From the NCBI GenBank assembly GCA_001897355.1, contig MKST01000011.1, positions 105,870 through 169,869 on the forward strand: a stretch of DNA of 64,000 nt, written 5' to 3'. The stretch's first letter is position 1; each line of letters begins with the position of its first letter. The notes below the pieces were generated by a model. The model was given only the letters and a program-made list of their open reading frames with translations. It did not search any database and was not told the DNA's origin. Positions 59,994 through 64,000 of this stretch are shown here, one piece after another. This stretch comes from Solirubrobacterales bacterium 67-14. Its GTDB lineage: Bacteria > Actinomycetota > Thermoleophilia > Solirubrobacterales > 70-9. The translations under genes and the position numbers were made by a program.

Positions 59994-61016
59994 ATGACCG
60001 CGACTGATGGTGCGAAGGGGACGGTCCTGGTCACCGGGGGCTCCGGCTTCCTCGGTGGACGGGCGATCATCGACCTGCTCGAACGGGGCTACGAGGTGCG
60101 AACCACCGTGCGCAGCAAGGCCAAGGCGGCGCGGGTCGAGGAGAACATCTCGAACGAACTGGGCCGGCCGGCCGGGATCGAGTTCTTCGAGGCGGACCTT
60201 TCCAGCGACGAGGGCTGGGCTGAAGCGGCCACGGGATGCCGTTACGTCCTGCACATCGCCTCGCCCTTCCCTCCGGGCAAGCCGAAGGACCCACAGGAGC
60301 TGATCAAGCCAGCCGTCGAAGGCGCGACGCGGGTGATCAACGCCGCCCTGGACGCCGGGGTCGAACGGATCGTGATGACCTCGTCGGTCGCGGCGATCCG
60401 CGGCGGCGAGAACCAGGAGAACCGGCCCTACACCGAAGAAGACTGGACCGAGGTCGACGCGGTCGCCGTCTATCCCCAGTCGAAGACGCTGGCCGAGCAG
60501 GCCGCCTGGGAGCTGGTCGACGAAAGGGGCGAACGGGAGAAGCTGGCGGTGATCAATCCCAGTGCCATGCTCGGCCCGGTCATGCCCGACGATGACTCTT
60601 TCTCACTCGAAGGCATCCAGCGGCTGCTCGACGGGATGCCGGCCGTACCGGAGATCGGCTTCAGCTGGGTCGACGTGCGCGACGTTTCCGCCGCCCACAT
60701 CGCCGCGATGGAGAAGCCCGAGGCCGGCGGCCGACGCTACATCGTTTCCGGCCCCTTCCTCTGGCTGCTCGAGGTGTCCGAGATCCTGCGGGAAAAGGTG
60801 CCGGACCTGGCCCAGAAGGCGCCGACCCGCAAGGCCCCCAAGTTCATGGTCCGGATCATGGCCATCTTCGACCCGGGCGCCCGTGCCCTGATCCAAGACA
60901 TCGGCAAGCGCAACGACTTCGACACGACCCGGGCGAAAGAGGTCCTGGGAATCGAAGCCCGCCCGGTCGAAGAAACCATCGTCGACTGCGCCAAATCCCT
61001 CGCTACCCGAAGTTAG
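59994..61016 (+). CDS. Extended SDR, dihydroflavonol reductase/epimerase-like
   Basis: A 340-aa NAD(P)-dependent extended short-chain dehydrogenase. The Rossmann motif GGSGFLGGRAIIDLL is near residue 15, the catalytic Ser is in MTSSVAAIRGG, and YxxxK reads YPQSK near 160. The C-terminal substrate domain includes GFSWVDVRDVSAAHIAAME. It is most like dihydroflavonol-4-reductase-type reductases of bacteria, which act on aldehydes or ketones. The substrate is unknown. It is divergent from the cyclase gene and leaderless. Confidence 0.88.
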   Translation: MTATDGAKGTVLVTGGSGFLGGRAIIDLLERGYEVRTTVRSKAKAARVEENISNELGRPAGIEFFEADLSSDEGWAEAATGCRYVLHIASPFPPGKPKDPQELIKPAVEGATRVINAALDAGVERIVMTSSVAAIRGGENQENRPYTEEDWTEVDAVAVYPQSKTLAEQAAWELVDERGEREKLAVINPSAMLGPVMPDDDSFSLEGIQRLLDGMPAVPEIGFSWVDVRDVSAAHIAAMEKPEAGGRRYIVSGPFLWLLEVSEILREKVPDLAQKAPTRKAPKFMVRIMAIFDPGARALIQDIGKRNDFDTTRAKEVLGIEARPVEETIVDCAKSLATRS

Positions 61017-61022
61017 CGGTAC

Positions 61023-61120
61023 GCCGTGGGGTTGGGTAGGCATCGCCGGGACGGTCGCGGGCGGCATTCAGCCGCCCTCCCCCTTGAGCGTCCCGGACGA
61101 CGCCCACCCAACCCCACGGC
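61023..61120. repeat. 98-nt compound hairpin after the SDR gene
   Basis: Outer arms 61023-61041 and 61102-61120 pair at 18 of 19 bases. A second imperfect stem joins 61042-61052 with 61090-61101. A 7-bp apical stem joins 61059-61065 with 61071-61077. It lies in the gap between convergent SDR and M23 genes, 15 nt before copy A of the repeated element. Confidence 0.6.
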
Positions 61121-61135
61121 TACCCCAACCCGATC

Positions 61136-61260
61136 GGCTCGACTGCTCCTGCTGCCATGAGGGCAATCAAGTTCGTAGGCATCTCGGGGGATGTGCTCTT
61201 TCCGACTGCGTAGTCCCGCACCAAGGAAAGAGCACAACCCCCGAGGCCCAAAGCAACAGG
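61136..61260 (+). repeat. Covarying-stem element, copy A
   Basis: Parts in order: box GGCTCGACTGCTCCTGCT (61136-61153), 29 nt of spacer ending CAT, stem arm 61183-61203, 21-nt loop 61204-61224 starting GACTGCGTAGTCCCGCAC, stem arm 61225-61245 (20 of 21 paired), 7 nt, GCAACAGG (61253-61260). The same order and spacing occur in copies B and C. The loop can refold as GACT/AGTC or TGCG/CGCA. It sits in the 256-nt gap between the SDR and M23 stops. Confidence 0.8.
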
Positions 61261-61272
61261 CAAATCCGGGGA

Positions 61273-62082
61273 TCACCAATCCCAGGCGTTTACGAGCGGT
61301 TCGGGGTTGAGGAGCCTGCCGTGGGTTCGGATCTCGATGTGCAGGTGGCAGGGCGTGCTGGCTGCGTTGCCCGTCTGGCCGACCGAGCCGAGGCGGCGAC
61401 CGGCCCGGACCTTCTGGCCCTTGCGGACCGGGGGCGGACGGAGCATGTGGGCGTACTTGTAGGTCCGTCTCTCCCCCTCGCCTTTCAGCACGACGAAGTT
61501 GCCGTAGAGCTCCGGATCGTAGGCCCGCTTGAGGATGGTGCCGGCCCGTACCGCCACGATCGGGGTGCCGCAGGCGGCGGTGATGTCAAACCCCTCATGG
61601 GTGCGGCCGTCCACCCTGGGCGCACCGAACTCGCCGATGTAGCCCCGGGTGCCATGCGGCCCGTCGAGCGGGAATTCATGGGAGTGGAGCCGGATCCGGC
61701 CAACCCGCCTGAACGGCCCCCCGATCGGGCCGGCCACCACCTCGTAACGACCAGCCGGTGCGAGCCTCCCACCCTGGGTGAGGCCGTCCCAATAGATGTG
61801 GTGCCAGCGAACCGGCTTCAGCGAGCCGGTGACGACGCGCCGGACGGTCAGGCCGTTGCCTAGCTCCTTGACCCGGATCGCGATGTGGCGATTCTCCCTA
61901 CCGTTGAAGCGGAAGTGGAAGCGGATCGGGTCCACGGAGTACGGAATCGCCTGCTTGGGCGTCACGCCCCGGTCCAAGAGCCGGAACGGCTGCTTCGGCG
62001 CCGCTTGGGCCGGCCCTGCAAATGCGAGAGCCGCCACCAGGACGGTGACGGCTCCGGCGAAGCTGCGGCAGAAGCTGCTCAA
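61273..62082 (-). CDS. Exported M23-type (LytM) metallopeptidase
   Basis: A 269-aa secreted peptidase with a signal peptide (residues ~5-27, ending GPAQAA). A beta-sandwich region (about 35-135) precedes the LytM domain. Zinc ligands include HEGFDI near 163 and HLHIEI near 247. M23 enzymes cleave peptidoglycan peptide crosslinks, often during growth or division. The start is TTG at 62082 with GGCGGAAG before it, only 9 nt after clpP, so it is likely cotranscribed with clpP, an unusual partner. Confidence 0.85.
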   Translation of the reverse strand: MSSFCRSFAGAVTVLVAALAFAGPAQAAPKQPFRLLDRGVTPKQAIPYSVDPIRFHFRFNGRENRHIAIRVKELGNGLTVRRVVTGSLKPVRWHHIYWDGLTQGGRLAPAGRYEVVAGPIGGPFRRVGRIRLHSHEFPLDGPHGTRGYIGEFGAPRVDGRTHEGFDITAACGTPIVAVRAGTILKRAYDPELYGNFVVLKGEGERRTYKYAHMLRPPPVRKGQKVRAGRRLGSVGQTGNAASTPCHLHIEIRTHGRLLNPEPLVNAWDW

Positions 62083-62091
62083 GCTTCCGCC

Positions 62092-62676
62092 CTAACGATG
62101 CTCGATTACCCGGTCGATCAGGCCGTATGTGGTGGCCTCTTCGGCGCTCATGAAGTAATCGCGCTCGGTGTCGTGGGTGATCTTCTCGAGGTCCTGGCCG
62201 GTGTGCTTGGCGAGGATCTTGTCGAGCCGGCTGCGGGTGTCGATGATCTCGTTGGCGTGGATCTCGATGTCGGTCGCCTGACCCTGGAAACCGGAGGAGA
62301 CCTGATGGATCAGGATCTTCGAGTTGGGCAGCGACATCCGCTTGCCCGCAGCGCCGCCGGCCAGCAGCAGGGCGCCCATGCTCATCGCGATGCCGACGCA
62401 GATGGTCTGGACGTCGGGCTTGATGAACTGCATCGTGTCGTAGATCGCGAGGCCCGCGTAAACGGAGCCGCCGGGCGAGTTGATGTAGAGGCTGATGTCC
62501 TTCTCGGGATCCTCCGCATCGAGGTGGAGCAGCTGGGCCACCACCAGGTTGGCGATGTCCTCGTTCACACCGGTGCCGAGGAAGATGATGCGCTCGTTGA
62601 GGAGCCGGGAATAGATGTCGAACGAACGCTCTCCGCGAGAGGTCTGCTCGACGACCATGGGGACAAGTGGACTCAT
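62092..62676 (-). CDS. clpP: ATP-dependent Clp protease proteolytic subunit
   Basis: Serine protease core of the Clp degradation machine. The catalytic triad is visible: Ser before MGALLL in [14 protein letters not shown] (about residue 99), His in LIHQVSSG (about 124) and Asp in DTERD (about 173). The length (194 aa) is typical and no second clpP copy is next to it, unlike clpP1-clpP2 in many actinobacteria. A TAGGAT box 6 nt before its ATG predicts a leaderless transcript. Two copies of the covarying element lie upstream. Confidence 0.96.
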
Positions 62677-62682
62677 GCCGCA

Positions 62683-62688
62683 ATCCTA
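62683..62688 (-). promoter_or_regulatory. -10 box TAGGAT, leaderless start of clpP
   Basis: TAGGAT ends 6 nt before the clpP ATG at 62676, identical to the tetR box. Confidence 0.5.
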
Positions 62689-62756
62689 TAGATGCGATCT
62701 CCCCGACTCAGAGTCGTATGTAGTACCTGTTGCACCGGGCGTCGGGGCTGGTTTTA

Positions 62757-62881
62757 CCTGTTGCTCTTGGACTCGGGGTGTGGGGGTCTGCCTTTGTGCG
62801 GGACTACGCAGTCGGCAGACCCCCACACCCCGAGATGTGAGCGGAGCTGGCCGGTCTGCTTGGAGCAGGAGGAGTCGAGCT
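62757..62881 (-). repeat. Covarying-stem element, copy B
   Basis: Read on the minus strand: box AGCTCGACTCCTCCTGCT (62864-62881), 29 nt ending CAT, stem arm 62814-62834, loop 62793-62813 (same as copy C), stem arm 62772-62792 (all 21 pairs), 7 nt, GCAACAGG (62757-62764). The stem sequence differs from A and C at eight positions. A second GCAACAGG occurs at 62726-62733. Confidence 0.8.
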
Positions 62882-62905
62882 GATTCCCTGCCTCAAGGGC
62901 TAGGC

Positions 62906-63028
62906 AGCTTGACTGCTCTGGCTGGGTGGGGCCATTCCAGTTGATCCGCATCTCGGGGGTTGTGGTTTTTCCGACTGCGTAGTCCCGCACAAAGGAAAAG
63001 CCACAACCCCCGAGCCAGGTGCAACAGG
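62906..63028 (+). repeat. Covarying-stem element, copy C
   Basis: Parts: box AGCTTGACTGCTCTGGCT (62906-62923), 28 nt ending CAT, stem arm 62952-62972, loop 62973-62993, stem arm 62994-63014 (20 Watson-Crick pairs and one G-U), 6 nt, GCAACAGG (63021-63028). A second GCAACAGG is at 63051-63058, next to the tig stop. Confidence 0.8.
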
Positions 63029-63060: not shown

Positions 63061-64000
63061 CTACTTGTCAGACTCCGCGTCAGCTTCGGTCGACTCGTCG
63101 TCCTCGTCGTCGCCGATTCCCCAGAGCTTCTTGTCGGTTTCTTCGGCAGACATCTCGGTGGCCTTGGCCGATTCGGCGATCACGTCCATCGCCTTGCGGA
63201 CCTTGATGTCAGCGGCGACCATCTCGTGGCGGCCGTCCCGCTTGAGGCGCTCGAGCAACTTCGCACCGGTGGTGCGCTCGTGGGAAGCGGCGTGTTCGAG
63301 TTCCTCGGCCATCTCCTCGTCGGTGACCTCGATGTCCTCGGCTTCCGCCACCGCGACCAGCACCGCCTCGCGGCGGATCTCCTGGTCGGCGTCGTCGAGC
63401 GACTCGTCGATGATCTCGTCGCGGGTCTTGCCCTGCATCTGCAGGTAGGTGTCCGGGTTCATGCCCTGACCGGCCATCTGCCGCTCGACCCGCTCCCAGC
63501 GCTCCTCGCCCCGGGCCCGGAGGATGTCCTCGGGGATCCCGACCTTGGCGTTGGCGACCGCGGCGTCGACCGCGGCTACCCGGAAGTCCTGTTCGATCCG
63601 CTGCTCGGCCGACTCGCCGAGCTTCTCGGCGATGTCCGCGCGCAGCTCCTCGAGCGTGTCGAACTCGGATGCCTCGGAGGCGAAGTCGTCATCGGCCTCG
63701 GGCATCTGCTTGACCCGGACCTCCTTGACGGTGACCGCGAAGTCGGCGTTCTGGCCGGCCAGCTCGGCGGCGCCGTACTCCTCCGGGAAGTTCACGTTGA
63801 CCTGGACCTCGTCGCCGGCCTTGGCGCCGATGATCTGCTCCTCGAAGTCATCGATCAACTGGCCGGAGCCGATCTCGATCGTGTGGTCGGTAGCCGAACC
63901 ACCCTCGAACTCGACCCCGTCGAGCGAGCCGACGAAATCGACCAGCACGTGGTCGCCCTCTTCGGCGGGGCGGTCGACCTGGTCGAGGCTGGCCATGCCT
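63061..64000 (-). CDS. tig: Trigger factor, N-terminus beyond window
   Basis: Ribosome-associated folding chaperone and peptidyl-prolyl isomerase. The window holds the FKBP-type PPIase domain (from VDRPAEEGDHVLVDFVGSLD) and the helical C-terminal chaperone arms, ending in an acidic tail (GDDEDDESTEADAESDK). The N-terminal ribosome-binding domain with GFRxGK is missing because the gene continues past base 64000; the frame is open to the edge. The ATG at 63996 is internal, not the start. tig precedes clpP, a conserved order. Confidence 0.95.
   Translation of the reverse strand, partial: GMASLDQVDRPAEEGDHVLVDFVGSLDGVEFEGGSATDHTIEIGSGQLIDDFEEQIIGAKAGDEVQVNVNFPEEYGAAELAGQNADFAVTVKEVRVKQMPEADDDFASEASEFDTLEELRADIAEKLGESAEQRIEQDFRVAAVDAAVANAKVGIPEDILRARGEERWERVERQMAGQGMNPDTYLQMQGKTRDEIIDESLDDADQEIRREAVLVAVAEAEDIEVTDEEMAEELEHAASHERTTGAKLLERLKRDGRHEMVAADIKVRKAMDVIAESAKATEMSAEETDKKLWGIGDDEDDESTEADAESDK

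Follow-up and report, generated by a model that had tools for sequence, protein, structure and literature searches.

Element H and its neighbours in the window

The stretch of DNA analysed here (the window) comprises 64,000 nt of contig MKST01000011.1 (positions 105,870 to 169,869, forward strand) from Solirubrobacterales bacterium 67-14. Around clpP, it contains three copies of a hairpin-bearing element, H, together with one copy of a second dispersed repeat, the P palindrome:

59994..61016, + strand: gene for an NAD-dependent epimerase, with P and copy A downstream
61022..61121, - strand: P palindrome, second dispersed repeat, often joined to H
61136..61260, + strand: copy A of element H (125 nt)
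61183..61203, + strand: hairpin A, 5' arm
61204..61224, + strand: hairpin A, loop GACTGCGTAGTCCCGCACCAA with a short apical helix
61225..61245, + strand: hairpin A, 3' arm
61273..62082, - strand: M23 peptidase gene, its stop codon 13 nt from the 3' end of copy A and facing it
62092..62676, - strand: clpP
62757..62881, - strand: copy B of element H, between tig and clpP, head-to-head with copy C
62772..62834, - strand: hairpin B (arms 62814-62834 and 62772-62792, loop 62793-62813)
62906..63028, + strand: copy C of element H, the tig stop codon lying 33 nt from its 3' end
62952..63014, + strand: hairpin C (arms 62952-62972 and 62994-63014, loop 62973-62993)
63061..63996, - strand: tig (trigger factor)

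The three copies had been described in a first-pass annotation, and their coordinates, strands and shared architecture were all borne out on re-reading the window. Copy A consists, in order, of a 5' box GGCTCGACTGCTC, a spacer, a box GTTCGTAGGCAT with GTAG inside, the hairpin and an end GCAACAGG. In each of the three hairpins, a 21-nt loop separates two 21-nt arms, whose complementarity is 95%, 100% and 95% in copies A, B and C, respectively; the loop reads GACTGCGTAGTCCCGCAC followed by CAA or AAA. The eight variable stem columns noted earlier are columns 8, 9, 12, 14, 15, 16, 17 and 19; the mismatch reported for copy A is A-A and the G-U pair reported for copy C is T-G, these being the imperfect pairs, one in each copy. 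Folding z-scores of -4.6 to -7.5 were obtained for the seven H copies folded. A retron-like reading, based on an apparent outer helix between CCTGTTGC and GCAACAGG, was rejected, as RNAalifold gives the main stem only and single folds pair the ends differently.

The P palindrome is present in the genome as 11 full or long copies and one short piece; seven are joined to H (P then H), and the four without H each lie 5-15 nt past stop codons. It folds into a 19-bp outer stem that encloses two helices (z of -10.9 for P copy L061), and ends resembling GTGGTYAC...GTCAACCRC, judged by eye, are common to about four P-H composites. No common theme was seen among the 15 flanking-gene proteins scanned. 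Positions 964-1048 of the window, in a convergent gap, hold a further gene-end hairpin whose loop, around GGAATGAGGAGCGCAGCGAC, is a recurring one; this type of hairpin is also found at L136 (4056-4142) and in a gap of congener G010 (L200).

The family in the genome and covariation of its stems

The genome to which the window belongs (G000, 3.23 Mb) was analysed together with 17 further genomes of the same Solirubrobacterales genus (congeners). With up to two mismatches allowed, the loop string has ten matches in G000, all exact, versus one for the reversed control, and a stem is present at all ten (one with a masked flank). A covariance model of the element, built from nine of these ten copies, retrieved 15 strong copies and one half copy; its other 11 rows in this genome are the reverse strands of the same copies (ten) and one weak match. 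Among the 15 copies, one is masked on its 5' side by an N stretch (L018, G000:C3, about 110622-110684) and in one about 58 nt are inserted into the loop (L023, G000:C11:100303-100489). The half copy (L034, G000:C1:59873-59995) is a 3' half of H at the end of an ORF.

The alignment of full copies (n = 16) begins with a 5' box RGCTCGACTKCTC, a variable spacer and, in most copies, a box GTTYGTAGGCAT; a stem of 19-21 pairs, the loop and then CCCARAGCAACAGG or a close variant follow. In ten of these copies GTAG, and in two GTGG, precedes the stem by about 4 nt on the 5' side; the remaining four have neither. A second loop, GACTGGGACTGTGCACACCAA, is found in four own-genome copies and also in L023, and the H copies of congeners have longer loops bearing a nested hairpin. 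The parts of the loop conserved across the family are GACT...(C)ACCAA, the short apical helix being less well conserved. The loop had been called nearly invariant, which is true among the window copies; across the family, it is constant within subtypes only.

Pairing is maintained in 97.8% of 324 stem cells in the 16 copies, with both-sided changes at 15 of 21 pairs, a number reached in none of 500 shuffles. This covariation agrees with the selection on paired structure proposed from the three window copies, and it exceeds both the shuffles (0/500) and slid controls in three sets: the full H copies and the H-type and sister hairpins described below.

Solo hairpins and a sister family

A wider covariance model brought in solo hairpins, in which the second loop sits on other stems. 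In G000, G001 (on two contigs), G013 (two in tandem) and G015, they follow a tautomerase gene (Pfam), such that solo hairpins with compensated stems have been retained at one gene pair across four species; another adjoins an RNase J gene in G011. In a set of 15 H-type hairpins limited to 21-nt loops (seven from full copies and eight solos), 94.7% of 375 cells are paired and double changes occur at 20 of 25 pairs (0/500 shuffles as high). Pairwise identity is 0.78 in the loop versus 0.51 in the stem. The apical helix of this set is paired in 85% of cells, and one pair out of the four is not formed in 9 of the 15 hairpins.

The hairpin model also matched a different loop, GACGACGTTTCGGGCCGAGGA, on unrelated stems. 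This sister loop is a near-invariant 21 nt, GACGACGTTTCGGG(C/T)CGAGGA, on freely varying stems. Searched by sequence alone (up to two mismatches), it has 30 matches, spread over 9 of the 18 genus genomes (G000:C2:142090-142158, G000:C5:185950 and 28 more; L143-L162, L176, L177 and L216-L222), and the reversed control has none. As no structure was used in this search, it is the cleanest test of kept pairing: 26 of the 30 matches form 16 or more of the 20 nearest pairs, and the other four are one cut by a contig edge (12/13 pairs), one degenerate (14/20) and two stemless (10/20 and 6/20). Among 399 genomes of the class, a further 13, all outside the genus, were matched, each with two mismatches, and the stem forms in none of the 13 (6-11 of 20 pairs). 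In an alignment of 18 sister hairpins, from which L145 (contig edge) and L150 (degenerate) were left out, identity is 0.97 in the loop versus 0.49 in the stem, and double changes occur at 19 of 20 pairs (0/500 shuffles).

Distribution

The full element has one covariance-model match in each of 3 of the 17 congeners. The hairpin model has matches in 6 of 50 genomes of the family, all from the same genus, and in 2 of 299 genomes drawn from the class. Outside the genus, the full model gave two weak matches only (G028, E 0.02; G067, E 0.04), which were excluded as members, as were L035 and L098 (inside a predicted gene); L079 was left unread. A combined loop pattern run over 84,980 genomes yielded eight matches in seven stretches, six of them in Solirubrobacterales MAGs; the two in other phyla (L116 and L118) are stemless and were read as chance. 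The pattern was absent from viral contigs, and blastn with copy A found nothing in plasmid and phage collections. The H family is, thus, narrow, with its supported members confined to one Solirubrobacterales genus. The covariance-model search proposed by the first-pass annotation did find further copies with paired stems, in the genome and in three congeners, but the family does not extend across Thermoleophilia.

No Rfam 15 family reached its gathering score at the loci scanned, in keeping with the earlier statement that no named family was known; the sub-threshold matches were to miRNA families, one snoRNA and isrG only. The two loop strings were absent from the open-licence PMC papers searched, and nothing was found on skipping-rope RNA in the same literature.

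Gain and loss of copies

The orthologous gap flanked by glycosyltransferase and zinc-ribbon genes could be read in 14 of the 18 genus genomes. G000 and G007 carry the element there in opposite orientations, as different subtypes, which implies independent gain. Judged by eye, the gap is nearly empty in G002, G004, G005 and G006 and has no evident hairpin in G013; the remaining seven genomes have different hairpins. In the regions upstream of clpP, some of which stop short of tig, the B/C pair is found in G000 only (1/17). Independent gain and high turnover are thus observed at the glycosyltransferase/zinc-ribbon and clpP-upstream gaps, the gaps of congeners not aligning, so that an exact empty site is unreadable. 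In G014, the gap corresponding to an H slot of G000 (L209) is occupied by another hairpin (GTTCTGGAGCCG...CGGCTCCAGAAC), present twice in tandem. Convergent-gap hairpins at L183 (4310), L186 (814), L189 (10433) and L196 (9811) share the apex TTGGCAA-CTA/TAT-TTGCCAA on different outer stems.

The RAYT-type transposase that had been suggested as a check did not appear: Y1_Tnp was found in none of the six genomes with H-type hairpins (73-96% complete), and a RAYT-driven REP was rejected on this ground. The only one of the 18 genus genomes with Y1_Tnp is G004, which is without H and has the sister loop (three matches, one with a good stem).

Strand bias of the imperfect pairs

Selection on the folded strand should tolerate G-T pairs on that strand and not A-C pairs; the same cells are reversed on the other strand. 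G-T exceeds A-C on the loop strand in 36 of 47 hairpins of both families and the reverse holds in none, in a count that, like the placement counts below, treats related hairpins as independent, making nominal p-values too small. The excess is seen in 12 of 21 H-type hairpins (reverse in none) and in 24 of 26 hairpins of the full sister set, with two ties (L176 and L216) and 46 G-T versus 3 A-C cells; a first sister set gave 17 of 19, again with no reverse case. The sets of 21 and 19 leave out L038 (one G-T, one A-C) and L150 (one G-T, two A-C). The recurring imperfect pairs sit at the 4th to 8th pair from the loop. When the 9th to 18th pairs alone are counted, a G-T excess is present in 8 of 21 H-type and 8 of 19 sister hairpins, and the reverse in none. 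The remaining mismatches are purine-purine in 12 of 12 cells of H-type hairpins and in 9 of 13 of the sister set. Read in the frame of H, the P palindrome has the opposite sign (A-C in five columns versus G-T in two). Near the 5' base of 42 hairpins of both families, GTAG occurs in 12 on the loop strand and in 2 on the other strand, and CGTC in 4 and 0, respectively.

Since G-T exceeds A-C on the loop strand and never the reverse, it is the fold of one strand that is kept, arguing for RNA or single-stranded DNA rather than a symmetric cruciform. The protein-binding cruciform offered by the first-pass annotation is at odds with this strand-specific tolerance of mismatches. Mutation confined to the stop-proximal arm could be an alternative source of the G-T excess.

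Placement relative to genes

According to simple codon-usage gene calls, all 15 own-genome copies are intergenic, lying in seven convergent, seven unidirectional and one divergent gaps; convergent gaps make up 35 of 230 background gaps of at least 30 nt, taken from the window and from 20 stretches at round coordinates. The 3' side of the copy faces an opposite-strand stop codon in 11 of the 15 (not in the other four), and in ten this codon is 3-55 nt from the 3' end of the element. Since the 3' side mostly faces such a stop, the strand that keeps the fold is usually antisense to the abutting gene: the downstream gene is antisense in 19 of 22 H-type rows and in 16 of 20 sister rows (three sense, one unknown). 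Hairpins with identical stems are merged into one row here, and rows are therefore fewer than copies. The upstream gene is on the same strand in 11 H-type rows, on the opposite strand in ten and unknown in one; the corresponding numbers for sister rows are 2, 13 and 5. Head-to-head pairs are formed by copies B and C in the window and are also present at L146 and at L159 in the sister family. A U-tract (at least five T in the 10 nt after the arm) follows none of 42 hairpins on the plus side and 2 of the 39 readable on the minus side, and as it is missing on both strands, the hairpin is no ordinary intrinsic terminator.

Possible roles of the folded strand

The explanation that we tentatively favour is that H, a dispersed repeat of REP-like character in this genus, works at the borders of transcripts as an RNA hairpin specific to one strand. 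The structured-RNA and REP-like options of the first-pass annotation are each right in part. Its starting points are the fold, strand bias, placement and turnover at one gap observed above. A role for the folded strand is suggested because this strand is biased and because solo hairpins have been conserved in place between species; that role would most simply be one of RNA at transcript borders, and we infer transcription, a loop-reading factor and the border function from this. The conserved signal would be the apical loop, with a stem of about 20-25 bp that need only pair, and the strand relevant for folding would be the one reading GACT...ACCAA in the loop. The RNA hairpin would lie at the border of transcripts running towards the facing opposite-strand gene, which may be read-through from an upstream convergent gene or antisense transcripts, and would end, protect or mark the transcript there. 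A putative trans-acting factor would read the loop and the imperfect pairs below it, and copies would be rapidly gained and lost via some dispersal mechanism. Where the upstream gene is antisense (13/20 sister and 10/22 H-type rows), this explanation would require an antisense or a short RNA.

A somewhat unlikely alternative is a non-autonomous mobile element of the REP type, acting through single-stranded DNA, in which an HUH or other transposase would read the folded strand. Such an element would explain why the folded strand keeps its fold and why copies land at gene ends, and the GTAG or GTGG 5' of the stem (ten and two of the 16 full copies), recurring imperfect stem pairs, head-to-head pairs and gain of one gap in opposite orientation in two species are all consistent with it. 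REPs with the same placement are described in excerpts of one study (PMC3733652), and excerpts of another (PMC8266576) describe that, for REPs in E. coli, one single strand and a stem bulge are recognized. However, no Y1_Tnp was found in the six genomes with H-type hairpins and the genus genome that has it lacks H, with the sister loop present, and mobility alone fails to explain why solo hairpins stay paired in place between species.

It is distinctly improbable that H is an ordinary bidirectional terminator or an mRNA-stabilizing hairpin, located in the mRNA to which the preceding stop codon belongs. The nearby facing stop codons and the over-representation of convergent gaps would fit, and a paper arguing for hairpin terminators calls poly-A/U trails not necessary, at least in a section title (PMC8355165). 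Read in that mRNA, however, A-C and C-C would predominate among the mismatches, whereas selection on that strand leaves the reverse; U-tracts are missing, and invariant loops across genomes would not be expected of terminators. Arm-to-arm template-switch correction can yield two-sided changes without function. The hairpins might, thus, be neutral palindromes kept perfect by template switching during replication and spread by recombination, as the existence of broken copies (the insertion in L023, the half copy L034) would allow; this is very unlikely, as it leaves unexplained both the bias of G-T over A-C and the stronger conservation of loop than stem. Local duplication around clpP, to which the occurrence of three copies inside 2 kb might have pointed, is refuted by the 12 more copies at other places in the genome, of which one is partly masked and another has an insertion, and by one each in three congeners, and has practically no probability left.

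The strand-specific RNA hairpin can be placed in a broader and rather doubtful scheme, in which the genus would possess a loop code made up of several families of hairpins, with free stems and with an invariant apical loop particular to each family. If this were true, the hairpins would mark, on the antisense strand, where genes end on their 3' side; a dedicated loop-binding factor would read these marks and stop or mark antisense transcription coming in, and the code would include H and the sister family as two of its words. Descriptions of palindromic repeats in bacteria usually rely on a base tag and a stem, whereas the conserved unit of the H family is the loop and its stems are nearly free. 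The count of G-T versus A-C pairs provides a testable handle on an RNA role, and the same strand test is applicable to other repeat families. Rapid turnover of gene-end hairpins within a genus is seen here at one gap.

Comparison with known systems

H resembles the structured RNA families of Rfam in its covarying stem and conserved loop, but the loci scanned are below every gathering score. It shares with intrinsic and bidirectional terminators a stable hairpin near stop codons, often in convergent gaps, and differs from them in having a U-tract on neither strand, a conserved loop with flanking boxes, and a fold maintained on the strand that is antisense to the neighbouring gene. The repetitive hairpin-forming elements of sponge mitochondria, as portrayed in excerpts of PMC2800124, have also invaded intergenic gaps repeatedly, with hairpins that differ between related genomes; these elements are mitochondrial and are likened to H by description, not by sequence.

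The REPs (GTAG and CGTC groups) and BIMEs offer further parallels. As far as excerpts of PMC3733652 describe them, they are extragenic palindromes in species- or genus-bound families, located near the 3' ends of unidirectional and convergent genes, forming dimers of opposite orientation and having subtypes with altered stems and loops; the CGTC group is presented there as being without a known dedicated transposase. H differs from GTAG-type REPs in that Y1_Tnp was not found in the six genomes with H-type hairpins. Its stem of about 20-25 bp compares with 6-13 bp in GTAG and 8-9 bp in CGTC REPs (figures from the same excerpts), and its 63-nt hairpin in a 125-nt element falls outside the short palindrome of 20-40 bp by which REPs are defined. 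H is further set apart from REPs by its outer boxes, its approximately 15 copies and the fact that its best-conserved part is the loop rather than a base tag.
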